Of a stretch of 60,176 nt of DNA, positions 32,352 through 51,863 are shown in pieces; positions within the stretch are counted from its first letter, which is position 1, and each line of letters starts with the position of its first letter. The position numbers and the translations under genes were made by a program. Source of the stretch: a virus; the IMG/VR virus record IMGVR_UViG_3300030451_001785, positions 1 through 60,176 of that record, one strand, 5' to 3'. Below the pieces are notes generated by a model that did not search any database, had not been told where the DNA came from, and was given only the letters and a program-made list of their open reading frames with translations.

Positions 32352-32819
32352 TTACACTTTTTTTAAAAAACAAACTTGAATTAATCTAGCCTTATCGTCT
32401 TGTCCAAAGTTTTCATAAATATTTCTTGAGTGAAATAAATTTGATGGAAAAACAATTAGTCTATTATATGCTGACCTTAATATACACATTTTATTTCTAC
32501 CCATATACAGGGTAGTTCCATCTTCTTTAGGATGTTCTTTATTTAAATATAGTATAGCAGTTAAATCTCCCATCATTTCATCCGTATGAATAAAATTAGG
32601 TTCTTCTTGATTTTCAGGAGATTTTCTTACAAAATTTAAATCTGCTTTATACATTGGATACTTCTGATGCAAAAACATAACTAATTGGTCTACTCCTCTA
32701 GCTTTTACATTTTTAAATAAATCGTGTCCTAATTGTACATCCTCAAATCCCTCTGCTAATATATCTTCTACATACTCATCTACACCACTAATAACATCTT
32801 CGTATATACCTATATTCAT
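32352..32819 (-). CDS. 2OG-Fe(II) oxygenase-like protein
   Basis: A 155-aa protein, a single jelly-roll domain. FIHTDEMMGDLTAILYLN supplies the HxD iron ligands, DGTTLYMGR a central strand, and FPSNLFHSRNIYENFG the distal His, followed by RLIQVCFL with the Arg expected to bind 2-oxoglutarate. Marine T4-like and podovirus genomes often carry such enzymes; substrates are unknown but include candidate prolyl or DNA-base hydroxylation. Position among virion genes favours modification of a structural or packaging protein. It overlaps its upstream neighbour by 4 bp. Confidence 0.8.
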   Translation of the reverse strand: MNIGIYEDVISGVDEYVEDILAEGFEDVQLGHDLFKNVKARGVDQLVMFLHQKYPMYKADLNFVRKSPENQEEPNFIHTDEMMGDLTAILYLNKEHPKEDGTTLYMGRNKMCILRSAYNRLIVFPSNLFHSRNIYENFGQDDKARLIQVCFLKKV

Positions 32820-33379
32820 AACTGCATTGTTATTTGGTGGTCATACATTCTATAAAGTTTTTCTTCATCAATATTAAATTCATATTCACTATCCGGCTGA
32901 AAAGAAACTCTATCACCTTCTTTTAATCCTTGGTCTTTTAAATATTGATTTGGATATTTTATTTCACCAACTAAAGGTTCTTCAGAAAATGGTTTGTATA
33001 TATAACTTTCTTCAACGGCAACAGGTTTTATAAAACAATACCTATCTACTGCATTCCATTTTCCATTTTGTTTGTAAGCAAAGTATTGGTCAGGTTCTAT
33101 AAAAAACAAATCATCTTTAAAAAAACTTTTACCACTTCTTTCTTTGCCTTGGATATCATTATAGAATTTAAAAACATTATGGTGTACTAATAAAATATCT
33201 CCCACCTGTATTGGACCTTTATATCCTAGGGGGAGTTCTATAACCTCAGCTTGTCTATTAGAAAAGTTATGGTCTTCTTTTGAAGTGCTAATAACAAAAT
33301 CAACACCTCCTATATTTTTTGTGTTATTGTATCTTTTACCTTTTATAGGTTTTACGATGAAGGAATATGGTGATTGCAT
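32816..33379 (-). CDS. GroES-like co-chaperonin candidate (virion module)
   Basis: A 187-aa protein. The N-terminal 120 residues follow a cpn10-like pattern: YSFIVKPIKGKRYNNTKNIG, NRQAEVIELPLGY, IQVGDILLVHHNVFKFY, FFIEPDQYFAYKQNGKW and YCFIKPV. 'VKPI...GD.LLVHHN.F' corresponds to the beta-barrel and GD turn of GroES; a mobile loop is not obvious. Similar proteins in marine phages are annotated as co-chaperonin GroES. The C-terminal 60 residues may be a second small barrel. This would be a second co-chaperonin besides 43938-44195. Confidence 0.55.
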   Translation of the reverse strand: MQSPYSFIVKPIKGKRYNNTKNIGGVDFVISTSKEDHNFSNRQAEVIELPLGYKGPIQVGDILLVHHNVFKFYNDIQGKERSGKSFFKDDLFFIEPDQYFAYKQNGKWNAVDRYCFIKPVAVEESYIYKPFSEEPLVGEIKYPNQYLKDQGLKEGDRVSFQPDSEYEFNIDEEKLYRMYDHQITMQL

Positions 33380-43499: not shown

Positions 43500-43507
43500 A
43501 ATAAATG

Positions 43508-43526
43508 TATCTTTGCTACAAAGATA
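43508..43526. promoter_or_regulatory. Palindromic pair of opposed -7 elements
   Basis: TATCTTTG (43508-43515, plus strand), CTA, then CAAAGATA (43519-43526, which is TATCTTTG on the minus strand). The 19-bp sequence is a perfect-armed dyad. Each element would drive transcription through the other, towards the regulator at 43541 on one side and the late array at 43499 on the other, so only one polymerase can occupy it at a time. The dyad may also be an operator. Confidence 0.65.
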
Positions 43527-43540
43527 TTAAATTAAATCGA

Positions 43541-43969
43541 ATGCTTGATTACTTAAAATATTGGAGAGTAATCAGATACTTTATAAAATCTAAGTACGGA
43601 TTATCCCAAGCAGAACTAGAGATGCTTCTCTTCTTGAGAAGCGAAAAATATTTTTCAAAAGATTCGTTTGATGAATACAACGAACTAATCAGTTGGGATA
43701 AAAACCGATTTGAAAAACTAAGAAGTGAAGGTTGGATAGATGTCTTCCGAAAGAAGGAAGCTAATAGAAGAGTAGTGTACCAACTATCTTATAAAGCACA
43801 ACGTATGCTTACTACTCTTTATAAAAAACTAGAGGGTGAGGAAATACCTGAAAGTAAATCCTCCAACCCATTGTTTTTAAGAAACATATCTTATACTGAT
43901 AAAGTATATAGAAACTATATTAAAAAGCTTAATAAGTTTATTCGACAACAACGACATCCCTCTCAGTAA
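43541..43969 (+). CDS. Winged-helix (MarR-like) regulator candidate
   Basis: A 142-aa protein starting MLDYLKYWRVIR. Helical N-terminus (YFIKSKYGLSQAELEMLLFL), then SWDKNRFEKLRSEGWIDVFR and RRVVYQLSYKAQRMLTTLY, which match the recognition-helix and beta-wing order of MarR-type winged helices. Similar proteins sit next to head genes in Flavobacteriia phages. It is the only plus-strand gene between 2.5 and 46 kb and faces the late array across a palindromic promoter pair, which fits a switch regulator. A longer reading from 43505 would cover the promoter dyad and is less likely. Confidence 0.7.
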   Translation: MLDYLKYWRVIRYFIKSKYGLSQAELEMLLFLRSEKYFSKDSFDEYNELISWDKNRFEKLRSEGWIDVFRKKEANRRVVYQLSYKAQRMLTTLYKKLEGEEIPESKSSNPLFLRNISYTDKVYRNYIKKLNKFIRQQRHPSQ

Positions 43970-44362: not shown

Positions 44363-45952
44363 TTAATTCTTATCTTCGTAAGTTCGTGCCATTGTAACTA
44401 TAGCATTGGTTGATAGTAATGTAACTGCAACTGAAACGGCATTCTGTAATGCACACTTAGTTACCTTCAATGGGTCAATGATTCCCATTTCATACATACA
44501 TCCAAACTTATCATTCTTTACATCGTATCCACCGGAGAATACATCAGTGTCTTTAAAGACACCATTATCATATTCCTCTCCTGCGTTTTCCCATATTTGT
44601 AATAGTGGTGCTTGTAAAGCTTCAGCTAAAATATTTATGTGCTTTTGTTTTTTATCTTCTTCACTATAGTCAAGTGATTCTCTAAATAAAGCAAGACCAC
44701 CTCCCGGAAGTATACCTTCTTCTAAGGCAGAACGCACTGCACAGACTGCATCATCAACACGGTCATACAGTTCCTTCTGTTCCAAATCAGTATTACCTCC
44801 TACATAGATGACACCCACACCTCCTGTTAAAGAGGCAATCCTACTTAGTATAAAATCTTTATCTGCTTTTAGTTTTGCATTCTTTGCAGCTTCTTTTAAT
44901 TGTGCAACTCTTTCTTTTATTACATCTGCATTATTGTTATCCTCTTTAATGATAACAGTTGAGTCACGACCAACTATCACCTTGGAACAATGACCCAAAT
45001 CGTTTTCTGTTATCAAACTCAAATCATCACCGGTCTTCTCAGAAAAGTAAGTTGCACCAACACTCACTGCTATGTCCTGCATAAGTTCGTGTTGCTTATA
45101 CCCAAAGGAAGGTGGACCAATAGTGCAAAGCTTGAGATTGCTTTTCATCACGTTGGCAGCTAATGTGTTTACGACATTGGATGAGGTTGGTGCTATGATT
45201 AATAATTTTTTTCCACCATTTATAATTGGCTTCAATACATTTTCAATTTGTAATATATTTTCAATAGGAGCATCGCTAACTAAAATCTGACAGTCTTCTA
45301 AAATACACTCGTCTTTCTTTTGGTCATTAATAAATAGTGGAGATTCAAACCCTCTATCTATTTTCAAACCGTTAGTGGTTTCAAAATAAGTTTCAGAGTT
45401 TTGAGATTTATCTACTGCAACGATTCCGTCACGACCTACCTTACGGTAAACCTTTGCGATTATATCGCCTAGGTAAGAATCATTATTAGCAGATATAGTA
45501 GCAACATCTTTTAGAGTTTTACTATTTACTTTTCTTGCTTTCTTCTTTAGTCTATCAACTATGCAAGTTGTTTCGTGTACAAGGTCTCTAAGTACCTGTG
45601 TCTTATTCTCGTCTAAATCTCTACCTGCATTGACTAAAGCTTCTGTCAATACTATTGCAGTAGTTGTTCCGTCACCGGCTTGAGTAGCAGTTCTATCTGC
45701 TGCCTCTTTCATAATTCTTACTGCTAAGTTTTCTGTGGGGTCAATAAGTGAAACTGACTTTGCTACAGTAACTCCGTCTTTGGTTACTGTGATTCCGTGA
45801 GAGTGTTGTGGGGATTCTATTAATACTGTTTGTCCTGATGGTCCGAGTGTAGACTTAACTGCTTTGGAAATCTTTTCAATTCCTTTGTAAAGTTTATCTC
45901 TACCTTCTTCTGCAAACAATAGGTTCTTTGGGGTGTATCCTATTTCTGACAT
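44363..45952 (-). CDS. groEL: Phage-encoded GroEL (group I chaperonin)
   Basis: A 529-aa protein. Conserved ATPase features are STLGPSGQTVLIESP, TVTKDGVTVAKS (equivalent of E. coli Asp52), AGDGTTTAIVLTEALV (GDGTTT), TGGVGVIYVGG, DDAVCAVRSALEEGILPGGG (Asp398 equivalent) and GIIDPLKVTKCALQNAVSVA. The apical domain (about 190-370) is divergent but complete. The C-terminal Gly-Gly-Met tail of bacterial GroEL is absent. Phage chaperonins (for example in Pseudomonas phage EL) fold phage proteins. The palindrome at 44547 encodes VFKDT near residue 465, in a surface-loop region. A TATATTTG promoter with ATTG at -33 lies upstream. Confidence 0.95.
   Translation of the reverse strand: MSEIGYTPKNLLFAEEGRDKLYKGIEKISKAVKSTLGPSGQTVLIESPQHSHGITVTKDGVTVAKSVSLIDPTENLAVRIMKEAADRTATQAGDGTTTAIVLTEALVNAGRDLDENKTQVLRDLVHETTCIVDRLKKKARKVNSKTLKDVATISANNDSYLGDIIAKVYRKVGRDGIVAVDKSQNSETYFETTNGLKIDRGFESPLFINDQKKDECILEDCQILVSDAPIENILQIENVLKPIINGGKKLLIIAPTSSNVVNTLAANVMKSNLKLCTIGPPSFGYKQHELMQDIAVSVGATYFSEKTGDDLSLITENDLGHCSKVIVGRDSTVIIKEDNNNADVIKERVAQLKEAAKNAKLKADKDFILSRIASLTGGVGVIYVGGNTDLEQKELYDRVDDAVCAVRSALEEGILPGGGLALFRESLDYSEEDKKQKHINILAEALQAPLLQIWENAGEEYDNGVFKDTDVFSGGYDVKNDKFGCMYEMGIIDPLKVTKCALQNAVSVAVTLLSTNAIVTMARTYEDKN
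44547..44562. repeat. Dispersed palindrome copy (TTTAAA centre) in groEL
   Basis: GTGTCTTTAAAGACAC, a fully symmetrical copy. In frame it encodes V-F-K-D-T in a variable loop of the equatorial domain of the phage GroEL, where bacterial homologues differ in length. Confidence 0.95.
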
Positions 45953-46218: not shown

Positions 46219-46290
46219 GCACCCATAGTTTAACGGATAAAACAAATCTCTTCTAAAGATTAAATCTAGGTTCGATTCCTAGTGGGTGTA
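46219..46290 (+). tRNA. tRNA-Arg (UCU)
   Basis: 72 nt. The acceptor GCACCCA pairs with TGGGTGT, the T arm is CTAGG-TTCGATT-CCTAG, and the anticodon stem AATCT/AGATT holds the loop CTTCTAA, giving anticodon UCU (reads AGA). The discriminator base is A and CCA is not encoded. It favours AGA codons, which are frequent in this AT-rich genome. Confidence 0.93.
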
Positions 46291-46294
46291 CTAT

Positions 46295-46379
46295 GTCCTA
46301 TTGGTGAAATTGGTAAACACAACAGACTTAAAATCTGTCGAGCAGTATGCTCTTGTTGGTTCGAGTCCAACATAGGACA
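46295..46379 (+). tRNA. tRNA-Leu (UAA)
   Basis: 85 nt with a long variable arm (CGAGCAGTATGCTCT), as expected for Leu. The acceptor GTCCTAT pairs with ATAGGAC, the anticodon stem ACAGA/TCTGT holds the loop CTTAAAA (anticodon UAA, reads TTA), the T arm is GTTGG-TTCGAGT-CCAAC, and the discriminator is A. Confidence 0.93.
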
Positions 46380-46382
46380 CTA

Positions 46383-46456
46383 CCTCGTTTAACTCAGTTG
46401 GTTAGAGTAGCATCCTTATACGATGAAGGTCGTAGGTTCAAGTCCTACAACGAGGA
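46383..46456 (+). tRNA. tRNA-Ile (UAU)
   Basis: 74 nt. The acceptor CCTCGTT pairs with AACGAGG, the anticodon loop CTTATAC gives UAU (reads ATA), the T arm is GTAGG-TTCAAGT-CCTAC, and the discriminator is A. A direct UAU anticodon avoids the need for lysidine modification of CAU. The first pair of the anticodon stem is G-A, a small imperfection. Confidence 0.88.
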
Positions 46457-46489
46457 CAAAAAAAAAGAGAGGTAAATGACAACCTCTCT
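46457..46489 (-). terminator. Rho-independent terminator for 67-aa gene
   Basis: On the minus strand AGAGAGGT pairs with ACCTCTCT around a TGTCATTT loop, followed by nine or ten T, after the 67-aa gene. On the plus strand the same hairpin directly follows the last tRNA and may protect or end that transcript. Confidence 0.82.
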
Positions 46490-47224: not shown

Positions 47225-47869
47225 ATGAGTACATTACTCCCAATCGAAACTGCGTTCCTCAATTCAACAGAGATTAAGAACGCTTTGAAACTTACTGAAG
47301 TAAAACGAGTTCAGAGAAGTATCAACAATGCTCACAAGAGCAAATTCAATCACACAACTAAACTAGCTACGCTAATCGGACAGGCAGTGCAATGGTTCGA
47401 TAGTGAAGAGGGTAGAGAGAAGTTCAGAGAAGAGGGTATTGAATGGTCAAAAGCCGAGTTCGGACAGAAGACTTTTGGATATCAGAAATCATTCTTCTAC
47501 AAGCTAGTTAAGGTTGCTAACCTTGACCCAAGAATACTTGATGCATTCAACACCAAGTGCGATGAAATTGGACAGGATGCAAACAGAAGTATTGCAGGGT
47601 TGCTTGAGTTCTCAAGAGATGTAAACCTTGATGCGATAGAGATATCAGAAGATGCAACTGAAGAAGAGGTTGCTATGGTACAACAAGAGGCAATTGACTC
47701 TACTCCTGTAGAACAGGAAAGAACAAATTACTTATTCGTTATGACCTACAAAAATCCTCAAGGAAACAACTTGTCAGTTCGAGTAGATGACCAAGGAAAT
47801 GTAAGTGGAAATAACCTAGAAGAAATTGCTAATGCAATTCAGTTCTTACAAAATTCAATTAATCAATAA
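47225..47869 (+). CDS. First early protein, HTH-like, unknown family
   Basis: A 214-aa protein. Residues 20-120 are helical (NAHKSKFNHTTKLATLIGQA, FGYQKSFFYKLVKVANLDPR, SIAGLLEFSRD), a pattern loosely like ParB- or DUF3102-type DNA-binding helices. Residues 130-160 are acidic, and 165-214 form a small beta/helix domain (YLFVMTYKNPQGNNLSVRVD). As first gene after the early promoter it may be a regulator. The palindrome copy at 47873 starts 4 bp after its stop. Start chosen after an AAAATCAAAATT leader. Confidence 0.68.
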   Translation: MSTLLPIETAFLNSTEIKNALKLTEVKRVQRSINNAHKSKFNHTTKLATLIGQAVQWFDSEEGREKFREEGIEWSKAEFGQKTFGYQKSFFYKLVKVANLDPRILDAFNTKCDEIGQDANRSIAGLLEFSRDVNLDAIEISEDATEEEVAMVQQEAIDSTPVEQERTNYLFVMTYKNPQGNNLSVRVDDQGNVSGNNLEEIANAIQFLQNSINQ

Positions 47870-47872
47870 TCA

Positions 47873-47888
47873 GTGTCTTCAAAGACAC
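47873..47888. repeat. Palindrome copy after first early gene
   Basis: GTGTCTTCAAAGACAC begins 4 bases after the stop of the 214-aa gene and ends 17 bases before the amidoligase ATG. Its leading GTG is an in-frame start possibility for the amidoligase, which I consider incidental. Confidence 0.95.
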
Positions 47889-47905
47889 ACAATACCACAG
47901 ATAAA

Positions 47906-48847
47906 ATGACAAATGAAATCACATACGAAATCTCTAACGAGTACGGAAGAAACCGAGTTCAGAGATACCACGGAACACCAAGTCCTAGAAACCTTTCTAA
48001 AGGTGCTAAATCTAGCGATATTGCTAACTTGAAGTCTGCATCCAAGAGAAACCTAATTGAGTTAGGTAATGGCGATGTAGATAGCAAGTTCACTATTGGA
48101 ATGGAAGTAGAGAAGAGTAGACTATCAAGAGGTGCAGTAAAAGAATACCCACTCTTCTGTGGGTTTGAAAGAGACTCCTCTTGTGGCTATGAAGCTATTA
48201 CTAATATCATACCTTTACTACCTAGTGGTAAGTGGCGAAACAAAGTGTTCAATATGATGTTTGAAGCTAGAAAAATCATTGAAGACCAATACTCTCCTAG
48301 TGACAGGAGATGTGGTGGTCACATTACTCTAGCAGTTCAAGGTATGACAGGTGCAGAGGTTATGTCTGCTATTCGTAAGAATTGTGGAATAGTTCACTCT
48401 CTGTTCTTCAAGAGGTTGAACAATGGGTACTGCCGAAACAATATGACTATGCTACCTAGCGACCAAGAGATGATGAATGGTGGTGGAAGATACCAAGTCT
48501 GTCTAGACAAGGGTAACACTATCGAGTTCAGAGTAGTGTCAAGGTTTCAATCTGTAAAGCAGATGATGAGAAGATACGAGTTATTCTATGAGTTACTTGA
48601 CTTTAGCATCAACAATCCAAATGGAAACCACAATACATTCCTCAAGAGAATCACTCCAATTGTCAAGTCTATGTACAATGGCGATATGGACAAAGTGAAT
48701 GAGAAGTTAGAGTTAGCAAAGCATTTCAGAACGATGATACTGAAGAACAAAGTGAATCGTAATGTAATCAACTATGTTGACCCAATGCGAAGACTTGACC
48801 CACAAAAATGGTACGACAGAGACCTTAACAGAAATGGGTATAGGTAA
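47906..48847 (+). CDS. Amidoligase-family (carboxylate-amine ligase) enzyme
   Basis: A 313-aa protein. Motifs of the Amidoligase_2/GCS2-like fold are KFTIGMEVEKS (residues 61-71, metal-binding Glu), ERDSSCGYEAITNIIPLL (88-105), RCGGHITLAV (135-144, His in the active-site strand) and TIEFRVVSRF (205-214, catalytic Arg). The family joins a carboxylate to an amine using ATP, producing gamma-glutamyl-type or peptide amides. The first ~60 residues are polar and probably flexible. It is in the same direction as, and 1.5 kb upstream of, the amidotransferase/cyclotransferase fusion, a pairing reported for amidoligase gene neighbourhoods. ATG at 47906 preferred over a GTG at 47873. Confidence 0.8.
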   Translation: MTNEITYEISNEYGRNRVQRYHGTPSPRNLSKGAKSSDIANLKSASKRNLIELGNGDVDSKFTIGMEVEKSRLSRGAVKEYPLFCGFERDSSCGYEAITNIIPLLPSGKWRNKVFNMMFEARKIIEDQYSPSDRRCGGHITLAVQGMTGAEVMSAIRKNCGIVHSLFFKRLNNGYCRNNMTMLPSDQEMMNGGGRYQVCLDKGNTIEFRVVSRFQSVKQMMRRYELFYELLDFSINNPNGNHNTFLKRITPIVKSMYNGDMDKVNEKLELAKHFRTMILKNKVNRNVINYVDPMRRLDPQKWYDRDLNRNGYR

Positions 48848-48857
48848 TCAATCAAAG

Positions 48858-48881
48858 GGTAGTGTCTTTAAAGACACTATC
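48858..48881. repeat. Palindrome copy, hairpin after amidoligase gene
   Basis: The core GTGTCTTTAAAGACAC (48862-48877) is extended by GGTA and TATCC to a stem of about 11 bp, beginning 14 bases after the amidoligase stop. As RNA it would form a 3'-end hairpin; no T-run follows directly. Confidence 0.92.
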
Positions 48882-48957
48882 CTCTGTCTATCGGTGTGTG
48901 CCGATACTGATGTGTTCAAAAGAACGAAACAGAAACATTAATTTAATTTAAATCATT

Positions 48958-49209
48958 ATGAAAAACACAATTAAAAAAATCGGTTTGTATACAGAATCAA
49001 GTCTGTATGTATTAGTAACATTAGGAGTTTACTCCTGTATCATTAGGTTGTTTGCACATATTATTATGGAAGACCTACGAGAAGTTAATAGTATCAGTGG
49101 AATCCTAGCTATCGTTTTGGTAGTAGGTTTCTGTACATTCTGTGCTATTGCAACAGGCAGTCTTTTGGTTGCAGAAATCAAAGAGAGACACAAGAAGTTT
49201 AACCAATAA
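48958..49209 (+). CDS. Small membrane protein, two spans
   Basis: An 83-aa protein with two hydrophobic segments (SSLYVLVTLGVYSCIIRLFA; SGILAIVLVVGFCTFCAIAT) and a polar, basic C-terminus (EIKERHKKFNQ). It lies between the amidoligase and the 166-aa protein. It might anchor, or export, a product of the modification pathway, but this is only from proximity. Start follows an AATTTAAATCATT leader. Confidence 0.62.
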   Translation: MKNTIKKIGLYTESSLYVLVTLGVYSCIIRLFAHIIMEDLREVNSISGILAIVLVVGFCTFCAIATGSLLVAEIKERHKKFNQ

Positions 49210-49220
49210 AATTAAATCAA

Positions 49221-49721
49221 ATGGAAAAGTTTATATGGACAGATGAATCTGTCAAAGCATTCGTACAAGTGTATTCAAGTAACTTTAATTCAAAGCTACT
49301 GAAAGATAGTGCAGTCACTTACAAAAACTATGCAGGGAAAAAGATAGATGAAAAGGTAGAGCAGTTTAAAAGAGACTACATTAAACCAAGAGGAATGTAT
49401 GTAGTCCTCTTGCAGTTCGATACTCATAAGATAACTTATGGAACGAACAGAGGGCAGTGGGTAGTTCGTAAAGAGTTCAATGACCTAAAGCATTGCAACA
49501 ACTTTATTGACTATATCTGTCGCAAGAAAGGATACTCACTTGATGAGATGTGGTACGAATCAGGATACCCATTTAACGAGGGCGACAAGTATTATACCAT
49601 CGAAGATAAACAGATAGTGGAATCTTGGTGGGATGATGAGTCAGAGGCATTGTTTGACAAAGACAAGTTATACTTTGCGACAATGGAGGATGCAGAGTAT
49701 TACAGAGAGAGTATTGTTTAA
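49221..49721 (+). CDS. Acidic early protein
   Basis: A 166-aa acidic, aromatic-rich protein. N-terminal half helical (FIWTDESVKAFVQVYSSNF, YKNYAGKKIDEKVEQFKRDY); C-terminal half has the recurrent phage pattern FNEGDKYYTIEDKQIVESWW, then DDESEALFDKDKLYFATMED. The GDxYYTIExxxIVxxxWDDxSE element recurs in early proteins of Bacteroidetes phages. Function unknown. Start follows AAATTAAATCAA. Confidence 0.65.
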   Translation: MEKFIWTDESVKAFVQVYSSNFNSKLLKDSAVTYKNYAGKKIDEKVEQFKRDYIKPRGMYVVLLQFDTHKITYGTNRGQWVVRKEFNDLKHCNNFIDYICRKKGYSLDEMWYESGYPFNEGDKYYTIEDKQIVESWWDDESEALFDKDKLYFATMEDAEYYRESIV

Positions 49722-49747
49722 TCTGTGGTAGATTAAATGTGAATGGA

Positions 49748-49775
49748 GGGTAGTGTCTTCAAAGACACTGCTCTC
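49748..49775. repeat. Palindrome copy, extended hairpin
   Basis: Core GTGTCTTCAAAGACAC at 49753-49768. Pairing extends outward with GAGGGTA against TGCTCTC (two wobbles) to about 14 bp, and CTCTTTTCTT follows. It lies 26-54 bases after the stop of the 166-aa gene. Resembles a terminator with a short T-run. Confidence 0.9.
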
Positions 49776-49802
49776 TTTTCTTACCACACAAAATTTAAAA
49801 CT

Positions 49803-50117
49803 ATGACTAAAAGAGAACAAATAATTAAAGAGTTAACAAGAAGAATGCAGATAGCTAAAGACACTCAAGCTATAGGCAGAGAAAAATATCTAGCTACACT
49901 TATAGATGGTGTGAAGAATGAGTTCAAACCTGCTTATCTAGAATCAGACAAAGGGAAGAAGTATAGTACCTGCTTTGACAATATGGAGACCTGTGGTTGT
50001 GAGACAAGTCAACTTGAATGGTGGAATTACTTTGGCGATTATGTCGAGCATCATAGACCAACTTGTTACAACAACGCATTGGAATACGCAGACGAACAAG
50101 AACAAAAAAATAAATAA
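49803..50117 (+). CDS. Hypothetical early protein
   Basis: A 104-aa protein from ATG at 49803, starting MTKREQIIKELTRRMQIAKD. Charged helices precede a Cys-containing segment (YSTCFDNMETCGCETSQLEW) that might bind metal. The longer reading from 49743 starts inside the palindrome hairpin region and is not preferred. Leader AAATTTAAAACT. Confidence 0.6.
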   Translation: MTKREQIIKELTRRMQIAKDTQAIGREKYLATLIDGVKNEFKPAYLESDKGKKYSTCFDNMETCGCETSQLEWWNYFGDYVEHHRPTCYNNALEYADEQEQKNK

Positions 50118-50120
50118 GAT

Positions 50121-50282
50121 ATGGAAGAGCAAAGATATTATCAGTTATACTACAAAGGGAAACCTTTGTTTATGCAATTAGGTTATTCAGTCTACCACGC
50201 AATAGACCAAGCTTATAGTATGCTTATAGGCAACGGTCACAAGGTTGACCGTAAAGACTTGACTGCAAAAAAGTTACGGTAG
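50121..50282 (+). CDS. Small hypothetical protein
   Basis: A 53-aa protein: MEEQRYYQLYYKGKPLFMQL, then GYSVYHAIDQAYSMLIGNGH and KVDRKDLTAKKLR. It starts 3 bp after the upstream stop and ends just before a new promoter. It is Tyr-rich and basic at the end. Function unknown. Confidence 0.55.
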   Translation: MEEQRYYQLYYKGKPLFMQLGYSVYHAIDQAYSMLIGNGHKVDRKDLTAKKLR

Positions 50283-50284
50283 GA

Positions 50285-50316
50285 TTTGGATATGTCTAAA
50301 TTTTGTCGTATATTTG
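50285..50316 (+). promoter_or_regulatory. Early promoter 2
   Basis: TTTG (50285-50288), exactly 20 bp, then TATATTTG (50309-50316): a near-perfect Bacteroidetes sigma-type promoter. The transcript would carry the palindrome copy at 50344 as a 5'-leader hairpin before the amidotransferase start at 50381. Confidence 0.85.
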
Positions 50317-50343
50317 TTTAAATTAATTATTAATCAGAGTTCT

Positions 50344-50359
50344 GTGTCTTCAAAGACAC
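50344..50359. repeat. Palindrome copy in leader of amidotransferase gene
   Basis: GTGTCTTCAAAGACAC. Flanks pair only partly (GAG with CTC across mismatches). Unlike most intergenic copies it lies downstream of a promoter, inside the 5'-untranslated region. Confidence 0.95.
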
Positions 50360-50380
50360 TGCTCACAAATCAAATCAATT

Positions 50381-51460
50381 ATGTGCGTTATTATTATAAA
50401 GCAAAAAGACAATGTAATGTCGAAAGAGGTAGCCAAAACCTCATCAAGAATTAATCCTCACGGATTAGGAATAATTTGGTTAGATACTTTTGAAGTCGAG
50501 TATCACAAATCAAAAGACTATCACAAGCTACTAACAAAGAGACCATTCATTGCTCACTTTCGTTATGCTACCAAAGGTAAAATCAACAGAGCCAACACGC
50601 ATCCATTTGTGTGTGGTAACAACAAGGATGAATACCTTATGCACAATGGAACAATACAAGGTATGGGCAACAAAGAATGTTGCGATAGCAAGATGTTAGC
50701 CAACAAGCTTGGAACAATCAATCGTATGCATTGGAAAAAAGAGTTAGAACAATACGACTCAAGGTTTGTGTCGGTCAATGTTCGCACTCGTTCATTCCAA
50801 ATCTACAACAGGAATCTCTATACTTACAGGGATGGCATTTGGTATTCAAAAGCCAATGTATTACAGGACAATCTTATCGCAGTGTATGGTACACTAAAGA
50901 AAGGTTATGGTAATTACTATGCGTATCTAACAAACGCAAAGCACCTTGGTCGGGGAACAACTAAAGACAAATATCCTTTGGTTGTTTCGGGTCTACCATA
51001 TTTGGTGGATGAAAAAGGCAGAGGTCACAATGTGGTTGTTGATGTGTTCAAAGTATCTGATGCACAACTACAAAGGGTTGACCAACTTGAAGGTCATCCT
51101 CGTTGGTACAAGCGAAAGCAAATAGATATCAAACTAAAGAATCGTACCTTGAAGTGTTGGATATATTTCAATCCACAAGTAATCACAAGCACGACACAAC
51201 TGCACAGGTCTTTTGAAAGAACTGCAAGACCAACGCAACAGGTGTTTACATTCCAAGATGTTGAGCCAACTTATGATACCACAGAGTTTCACGAGGCAAT
51301 AGATATTGGTTGGGATGATAACGACTTTCCAACAGACCAAACACCAACTTGTATTGACTGCTTTAATGACTTGGAACACGATGCGTTCCACAACTACTAC
51401 TGCTCATCCTGTGGTGGTTGGTTTAAGGAAGATGAAGTGTTGAGGTTTAACGAAGAATAA
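50381..51460 (+). CDS. Class-II glutamine amidotransferase / gamma-glutamyl cyclotransferase / zinc-ribbon fusion
   Basis: A 359-aa protein with three parts. Residues 1-140: Ntn glutamine amidotransferase, with Cys2 directly after Met (MCVIIIKQKD), HFRYATKGKINRANTHPFV and MHNGTIQG. Residues 163-270: AIG2/GGCT-like cyclotransferase, with YGTLKKGYGN (169-178), SGLPYLV, VDVFKVSD and Glu237 in DQLEGHPRW, the catalytic-acid position. Residues 324-344: Cys4 zinc ribbon (CIDC and CSSC). The amidotransferase would supply ammonia or move glutamyl groups; the cyclotransferase releases gamma-glutamyl groups as 5-oxoproline. With the amidoligase at 47906 this suggests a cycle of amide/gamma-glutamyl modification and removal. 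A strong promoter precedes it. Confidence 0.88.
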   Translation: MCVIIIKQKDNVMSKEVAKTSSRINPHGLGIIWLDTFEVEYHKSKDYHKLLTKRPFIAHFRYATKGKINRANTHPFVCGNNKDEYLMHNGTIQGMGNKECCDSKMLANKLGTINRMHWKKELEQYDSRFVSVNVRTRSFQIYNRNLYTYRDGIWYSKANVLQDNLIAVYGTLKKGYGNYYAYLTNAKHLGRGTTKDKYPLVVSGLPYLVDEKGRGHNVVVDVFKVSDAQLQRVDQLEGHPRWYKRKQIDIKLKNRTLKCWIYFNPQVITSTTQLHRSFERTARPTQQVFTFQDVEPTYDTTEFHEAIDIGWDDNDFPTDQTPTCIDCFNDLEHDAFHNYYCSSCGGWFKEDEVLRFNEE

Positions 51461-51837: not shown

Positions 51838-51863
51838 GAGGGGTGTCTTCAAAGACACTCCTC
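51838..51863. repeat. Palindrome copy, 12-bp hairpin
   Basis: Core GTGTCTTCAAAGACAC at 51843-51858, extended by GAGGG and TCCTC to a 12-bp stem with one wobble pair, 9 bases after the upstream stop. Leader ATAAATCAAAATAAAA follows and the next gene starts at 51880. Confidence 0.93.

Follow-up and report, generated by a model that had tools for sequence, protein, structure and literature searches.

A two-gene amidoligase and amidotransferase-cyclotransferase unit in a family of phages and its possible relation to the peptidoglycan modification module

The virus record IMGVR_UViG_3300030451_001785, analysed over its whole length of 60,176 bases (the window), carries near the start of a rightward gene block one gene for an amidoligase and, downstream of it, one gene for a glutamine amidotransferase fused to a gamma-glutamylamine cyclotransferase (GGACT) domain and a Cys4 ribbon. 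Do these genes constitute a modification pathway, and what would such a pathway act on? A prediction made from the sequence of the window (the original prediction) had placed the two genes at 47906-48847 and 50381-51460, and both proved to be real genes with these coordinates. By combining profile searches, structure prediction and comparison of related phages, we found that the two genes are conserved together throughout the phage family and resemble the peptidoglycan modification module proposed for several podoviruses. Whether they represent a compact early form of this module is, in our estimate, an evenly balanced question.

The amidoligase

The first gene encodes a protein whose relatives are found on 42 viral contigs. 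The window protein has no match in Pfam, PHROG or PADLOC, no match was obtained by a PDB sequence search with its profile, and a plasmid search returned nothing. The 38-member alignment of the family also gave no coherent Pfam match, and neither the window protein nor any other member of the alignment matches Amidoligase_2 (PF12224). The 38-sequence profile was then compared with those of eight phage proteins, most of which were confirmed as Amidoligase_2 by our Pfam scan, and this gave an hhalign E value of 9.5e-9 with a probability of 95.7 over 175 columns. The motifs of the ligase lie within the alignment, namely GxExE, the Asp-Ser strand (Dxs...E), CGxH, C..N and EFR. Across 38-39 sequences they are fully or almost fully conserved, and the invariant residues include G65, E67, E69, K70, D90, E96, H139, R170, E207 and R209. 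The AlphaFold2 model of the protein has a mean predicted local distance difference test score (pLDDT) of 93. Its top Foldseek matches in the PDB all belong to the glutamine synthetase (GS) superfamily, with a best E value of 2.7e-4 and a low template modelling (TM) score of ∼0.3; among these neighbours are glutamine synthetases, YbdK, gamma-glutamylmethylamide synthetase and the Pup ligase PafA.

Since the profile-profile match, the fold and the motifs agree in the absence of a Pfam match, the protein is a member of the GS-fold superfamily that lies outside the Amidoligase_2 family as curated in Pfam. The ratio of nonsynonymous to synonymous substitution rates (dN/dS) of 0.08-0.19 points to purifying selection on the gene. 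Its start is the ATG at 47906; an upstream GTG at 47873 sits within a repeated hairpin and was not taken as the start. TAG and TGA codons observed within some amidoligase matches were interpreted as alignments extending beyond the true end of the gene, as related open reading frames (ORFs) end there and no conserved tail follows. In the phage genome MW202828 (L055:10218-11942) the amidoligase possesses an extra N-terminal region of ∼250 residues that has no Pfam match.

The amidotransferase-cyclotransferase fusion

The N-terminal domain of the fusion protein is matched by Pfam GATase_4 (2.1e-6) and, by Foldseek, to GFAT/GlmS. It carries the signature of class-II amidotransferases, namely the Cys2 nucleophile, HxRxAT, the NG oxyanion motif and the Gln-binding Asp. 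The corresponding residues C2 (the nucleophile after Met removal), R61, T64, N89, G90 and D102, which we take to map onto those of GlmS, are identical in 38/38 sequences.

The middle domain is matched by Pfam PF06094 (1.1e-21; 78 bits against a cut-off of 22.8) and, both by sequence and by fold, by the human GGACT structures 3juc and 3jub (for 3juc, E value 2.4e-9 and root-mean-square deviation 2.4). Its YGTL motif at residues 169-172 (Y169-L172) and its catalytic-type Glu237, which aligns with the region of GGACT E82, are invariant in 38 of the 38 sequences. The phage domain therefore shares with human GGACT the fold and the motif with a catalytic-type Glu, and differs from it in sequence (27% identity) and in being part of a fusion, whereas the human enzyme is free-standing. 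The domain is closest to the gamma-glutamylamine type, well ahead of the glutathione-specific ChaC, and degradation of glutathione is accordingly disfavoured.

These assignments bear on the possibility of nitrogen or glutamate salvage, in which a glutaminase and a cyclotransferase would feed the amino-acid or nucleotide pools of the infected cell and the amidoligase would serve as a replacement amide synthetase. Glutamyl amides would be the substrates of both fused domains, and recycling of host material was raised for a related cassette (PMC5498523). However, the constant presence of an ATP-using ligase partner argues for synthesis, and a GGACT-type enzyme lacking glutathione specificity would make a poor salvage enzyme. 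We regard salvage as very unlikely.

The C-terminal ribbon follows a linker (residues 282-319) with pLDDT below 50. Its cysteines C324, C327, C341 and C344 are kept in 36/36 aligned family members, and of the 80 fusions known in the family 78 carry a ribbon. The fusion thus has the three parts that had been predicted, and the arrangement is a trait of the whole family instead of a peculiarity of one phage. The gene as a whole is under purifying selection (dN/dS 0.08-0.16). Two related contigs (L221 and L224) encode a fusion devoid of the ribbon and retain the amidoligase, and phage C75C1, described below, likewise encodes a ribbonless fusion. An essential targeting role of the ribbon is therefore not supported; the ribbon probably positions the protein by binding a partner or a substrate and is not needed for catalysis.

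A related possibility, raised for host proteins in the original prediction, is that gamma-glutamyl or amide links serve to tag proteins of the host or of the phage, with the ribbon binding the target. The retention of the ribbon in nearly all family fusions is in line with such a role, and GS-fold ligases include PafA, which is among the weak Foldseek matches of the amidoligase. Against it, the same gene pair occurs without a ribbon in the phages just named, no conserved small tag protein was found between the two genes, and the substrates of GGACT-type enzymes are small gamma-glutamyl amines. Protein tagging appears distinctly unlikely on this evidence.

In the fusion genes of two relatives, L048 and L050 (82% identical in DNA), a TGA codon stands in frame at the position of the invariant Trp118. 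The dN/dS ratio of the TGA-bearing gene is 0.085 before the TGA and 0.17 after it. Genome-wide recoding of UGA to Trp was rejected, as 58/58 other conserved Trp codons of the genome concerned are TGG and no other stop occurs within conserved genes. Purifying selection on both sides of the TGA, together with the lack of other recoding in the genome, suggests programmed UGA readthrough at a point within the amidotransferase domain and ahead of the cyclotransferase. Alternatively, the fusion could be a two-headed eraser and not a supplier of ammonia: its N-terminal nucleophile (Ntn) and GGACT domains would both recognize gamma-glutamyl amides made by the amidoligase. With the ligase as writer, the modification system would then be reversible, and the ribbon would select the target; in at least two relatives, readthrough of the conserved UGA would control the amount of the eraser half. 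We give this alternative little credence.

Conservation of the gene pair

The fusion gene lies downstream of the amidoligase gene within 2.6 kb in 39 of the 42 amidoligase contigs; in the remaining 3 the sequence stops within 1.7 kb after the amidoligase. Both genes are therefore syntenic in 39/39 contigs long enough to show both. As a control we used 16 longer contigs gathered with the terminase and selected independently of the amidoligase and the fusion. Nine of them possess both genes, seven possess neither and none possesses one alone; the seven contigs with neither gene are fragments under 42 kb. A wider search detected the fusion on at least 80 viral contigs of the family, 70 of which show the amidoligase within a 4-kb flank, and the full records of 14 fusion contigs, several of them lacking the amidoligase in the flank, contain it in 14/14 cases. 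All near-complete genomes of the family that were examined retain both genes. The absence of the expected ligase fold or catalytic residues, or a failure of the two genes to co-occur in related phages, would have spoken against the original prediction; the fold was obtained, the catalytic residues are intact, and wherever a relative allowed the check, the two genes were found together.

Small ORFs exist between the two enzyme genes, where the original prediction had placed small acidic proteins, and are restricted to parts of the family. The two-span membrane protein among them does exist. It occurs in the closest relatives only, most relatives having no homologue, and hence it is outside the conserved unit.

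Comparison with known phage modules

A seven-gene peptidoglycan modification cassette consisting of amidoligases, an ATP-grasp enzyme, a gamma-glutamyl cyclotransferase and a glutamine amidotransferase was described in phage PSA-HP1 and is conserved in RIO-1, phiEco32, PA11, tf, LUZ24, PaP3 and CW02, with anti-superinfection as its proposed role (PMC5498523; description repeated in PMC11945000). The position, domain organization and gene number of the cassette vary (PMC11945000), and its genes in HP1 are expressed immediately after infection (PMC7082346). The idea of peptidoglycan modification by phiEco32 is credited to Iyer et al. 2009 (PMC10580990). The 'putative peptidoglycan modification module' of the phiEco32, LUZ24, RIO-1 and PSA-HP1 podoviruses goes back to Iyer et al. 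2009 and Hardies et al. 2013, as these are quoted in PMC5498523 and PMC11945000. No biochemical test or demonstrated product of the module was found in the accessible literature.

The window resembles this module in the clustering of an Amidoligase_2-type ligase, a class-II amidotransferase and a GGCT/AIG2 domain in the early region, which is here defined by position. It differs in having two genes in place of five to seven, in the fusion of the amidotransferase to the cyclotransferase and the Cys4 ribbon, and in the strong divergence of its amidoligase. Long modules with both a COOH-NH2 ligase and an ATP-grasp enzyme occur in LUZ24, Vibrio phage 1.293.O and T5S1-k141_18163. The phiEco32-type COOH-NH2 ligase (PF14395) was detected in these three phages and was not detected in the window or the relatives searched. 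No ATP-grasp peptide ligase was detected in the window family with a three-sequence profile, which was built from the three long modules and matches those same three. Hence, among the features that mark the known module, the triad of activities is present and the COOH-NH2 ligase and the ATP-grasp enzyme were not found.

Shorter arrangements were observed in other phages. C75C1 encodes an amidoligase (WJE88166.1) and, less than 1 kb downstream of it, a GATase-GGACT fusion (WJE88161.1, annotated as gamma-glutamyl cyclotransferase) that is 45% identical to the window fusion over 263 amino acids. Unlike the window, it has an ordinary Amidoligase_2 (3.5e-30) and belongs to a separate phage lineage. 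Among 12 C75C1-related contigs with the fusion, an Amidoligase_2-type gene precedes it on 10, as far as the available sequence reaches. In Arthrobacter phage Salgado the triad of the window is present as contiguous GGACT, amidoligase and glutamine amidotransferase genes (97-99), but these are three separate genes and the amidotransferase is of the GATase_6 type; in Arthrobacter phage Ottawa the three are also neighbouring genes. The amidoligase and GGACT are near each other in Bacillus phage 055SW001 and Geobacillus phage GR1, whilst two further amidoligase-bearing phages that were checked, FP_Taranis and a Porphyromonas phage, lack GGACT. The comparison phages were partly chosen for known GGCT matches, and the proportion with the triad is thus not a frequency. 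The combination of activities is already known; what sets the present case apart is the two-gene form, the three-domain fusion and the strongly diverged ligase.

Such a short pathway could instead yield a small diffusible gamma-glutamyl or amide metabolite, for example an antimetabolite, a counter-defence compound or a protected amine. The butirosin pathway attaches a gamma-glutamyl group that a GGACT-like enzyme subsequently takes off, and the presence of a writer and a gamma-glutamyl remover in one unit follows the same logic of protection and deprotection. The early position and the failure to detect the extra ligases of the long module are also consistent with this alternative. Still, neither a carrier protein nor a transporter nor any further biosynthetic enzyme was recognized nearby and PADLOC gave no match, and we consider a metabolite unlikely.

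Proposed function

The favoured reading, to which we give about even odds, is a compact early version of the peptidoglycan modification module proposed for other phages, which would act through amide or gamma-glutamyl links on cell-wall peptide precursors, a target suggested by analogy. In its favour are the invariant active-site residues, the purifying selection on both genes, their constant association, the recurrence of the three activities in other phages and the GGACT type of the cyclotransferase. As judged from the chemistry of the respective families, the amidotransferase domain would hydrolyse glutamine to glutamate and ammonia, the ATP-dependent amidoligase would couple a carboxylate with ammonia or an amine, and the GGACT domain would strip gamma-glutamyl from an amine as 5-oxoproline. 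The three activities may form one early cytoplasmic pathway by which unusual gamma-glutamyl or amide links are introduced into wall-peptide precursors and trimmed, so that the wall of the infected cell would be altered, either against superinfection or in preparation for lysis. The triad is constant across phages of unrelated hosts, which speaks for a target common to most bacteria; this fits wall precursors without proving them.

Several observations weigh against this proposal. Peptidoglycan as the target is a published hypothesis, with a substrate that is predicted only. As neither the COOH-NH2 ligase nor the ATP-grasp enzyme was detected, the product may differ from that of LUZ24 or HP1 and may be simpler. 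In the window family the HxH motif of Amidoligase_2 lacks a conserved second His, position 141 being mostly Thr. The amidotransferase is fused to the cyclotransferase and not to the ligase, and the hand-over of ammonia would need a putative complex. Finally, the model of the fusion has a predicted TM score (pTM) of 0.52 and does not settle the arrangement of its domains.

Genomic context and other features of the window

Coordinates of the features are collected in Table 1. The left part of the window is a leftward gene block for virion proteins, among them the terminase, the portal and a structural protein of the virion, and a GroEL gene stands where this block starts. The rightward block starts at 47225 and goes on to genes for a BT4734-like primase, an exonuclease and a Sak annealing protein. 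Among its first genes are those of the amidoligase and the fusion; their placement in the earliest transcribed part of the genome is thus correct as to the 5' end of this block, from which early expression is inferred by position.

The proteins of the window also bear on a pathway of DNA base hypermodification. Amide-forming enzymes are used in DNA modification in some phages, yet no base-modification enzyme was found among the window proteins scanned, a set that covers the small ORFs in part, and we regard this role as extremely unlikely.

The gene at 47225 has homologues in nearly all loci and was not detected in L044 and L048-L050. Its product has no coherent Pfam match and no PDB match, and it is a possible but unproven member of the module.

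Table 1. Features of the gene pair and its surroundings (window coordinates unless a related contig is named)
Feature	Position	Strand	Remarks
Three tRNA genes, Arg-TCT, Leu-TAA, Ile-TAT	46219-46457		divergent region
Unnamed conserved gene, 214 aa	47225..47869	+	directly upstream of amidoligase
Hairpin copy GTGTCTTCAAAGACAC	47873..47888	+	between gene 47225 and amidoligase
Amidoligase, GS/GCS2-like COOH-NH2 ligase superfamily, 313 aa	47906..48847	+	hhalign, AlphaFold2, Foldseek, motifs
Hairpin copy	48862..48877	+	just past amidoligase stop codon; similar place in relatives
Two-span membrane protein, accessory	48958..49209	+	closest relatives only
Accessory protein, 166 aa	49221..49721	+	between the two enzymes; subset of relatives
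Hairpin copy	49753..49768	+	between accessory genes; T-rich tail after it, terminator-like
Hairpin copy	50344..50359	+	just upstream of fusion gene
Fusion, glutamine amidotransferase + GGACT + Cys4 ribbon, 359 aa	50381..51460	+	
Class-II glutamine amidotransferase (Ntn) domain, residues ∼1-160	50381..50860	+	GATase_4; GFAT/GlmS by Foldseek
GGACT domain, residues ∼164-268	50870..51184	+	PF06094; human GGACT match
Cys4 zinc-ribbon-like tail, C324, C327, C341, C344	51344..51424	+	after low-confidence linker
Hairpin copy	51843..51858	+	downstream of fusion gene and its neighbour
All hairpin copies	110, 8033, 24661, 31772, 44547, 46995, 47873, 48862, 49753, 50344, 51843, 53364, 54796, 56116, 60145		
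In-frame TGA at Trp118 of fusion gene	L048:8372, L050:8615, L049:4205		related contigs

A 16-bp palindrome, GTGTCT-TYRA-AGACAC, occurs in 15 copies in the window and in 5-13 copies in 16 relatives, and a reversed-pattern control gave 0 matches. Other relatives each have a repeated stem of their own (GTGTCG, GACGCC, GGCTCG, GTCTCT, GTGTCC). The centre of the hairpin in rightward early blocks is CA in 74 copies and TG in 6, a bias which indicates that the hairpin is oriented to transcription, and at several copies the flanks lengthen the stem of the RNA hairpin. The repeat has the appearance of a signal acting at the RNA level or of a regulator site, with lineage-specific sequence, and a boxB-, stoperator- or attenuator-like network is possible. 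The copies at 110 and 60145 have identical flanks, suggesting redundant ends and thus a complete genome.

The GroEL-type chaperonin gene (44363-45952) is conserved in the family, and a sub-threshold GroES-like match was observed at 32816-33379. A short conserved protein adjoining the GroEL gene (43505-43969) has a counterpart in MW202828 annotated as 'repressor protein' and is a candidate binder of the dispersed palindrome. The tRNA cluster is also present, in a different order, in a close relative (L002). Relatives are present in metagenome bins labelled Cytophagales and Flavobacteriales, and these labels point to Bacteroidota hosts for this family of podoviruses.

Implications

In this family the published module of five to seven genes is reduced to two, so that a pair of purified proteins and a single double deletion would suffice to test the long-standing prediction. 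The two-gene form sets a minimal list of activities that the pathway must need.

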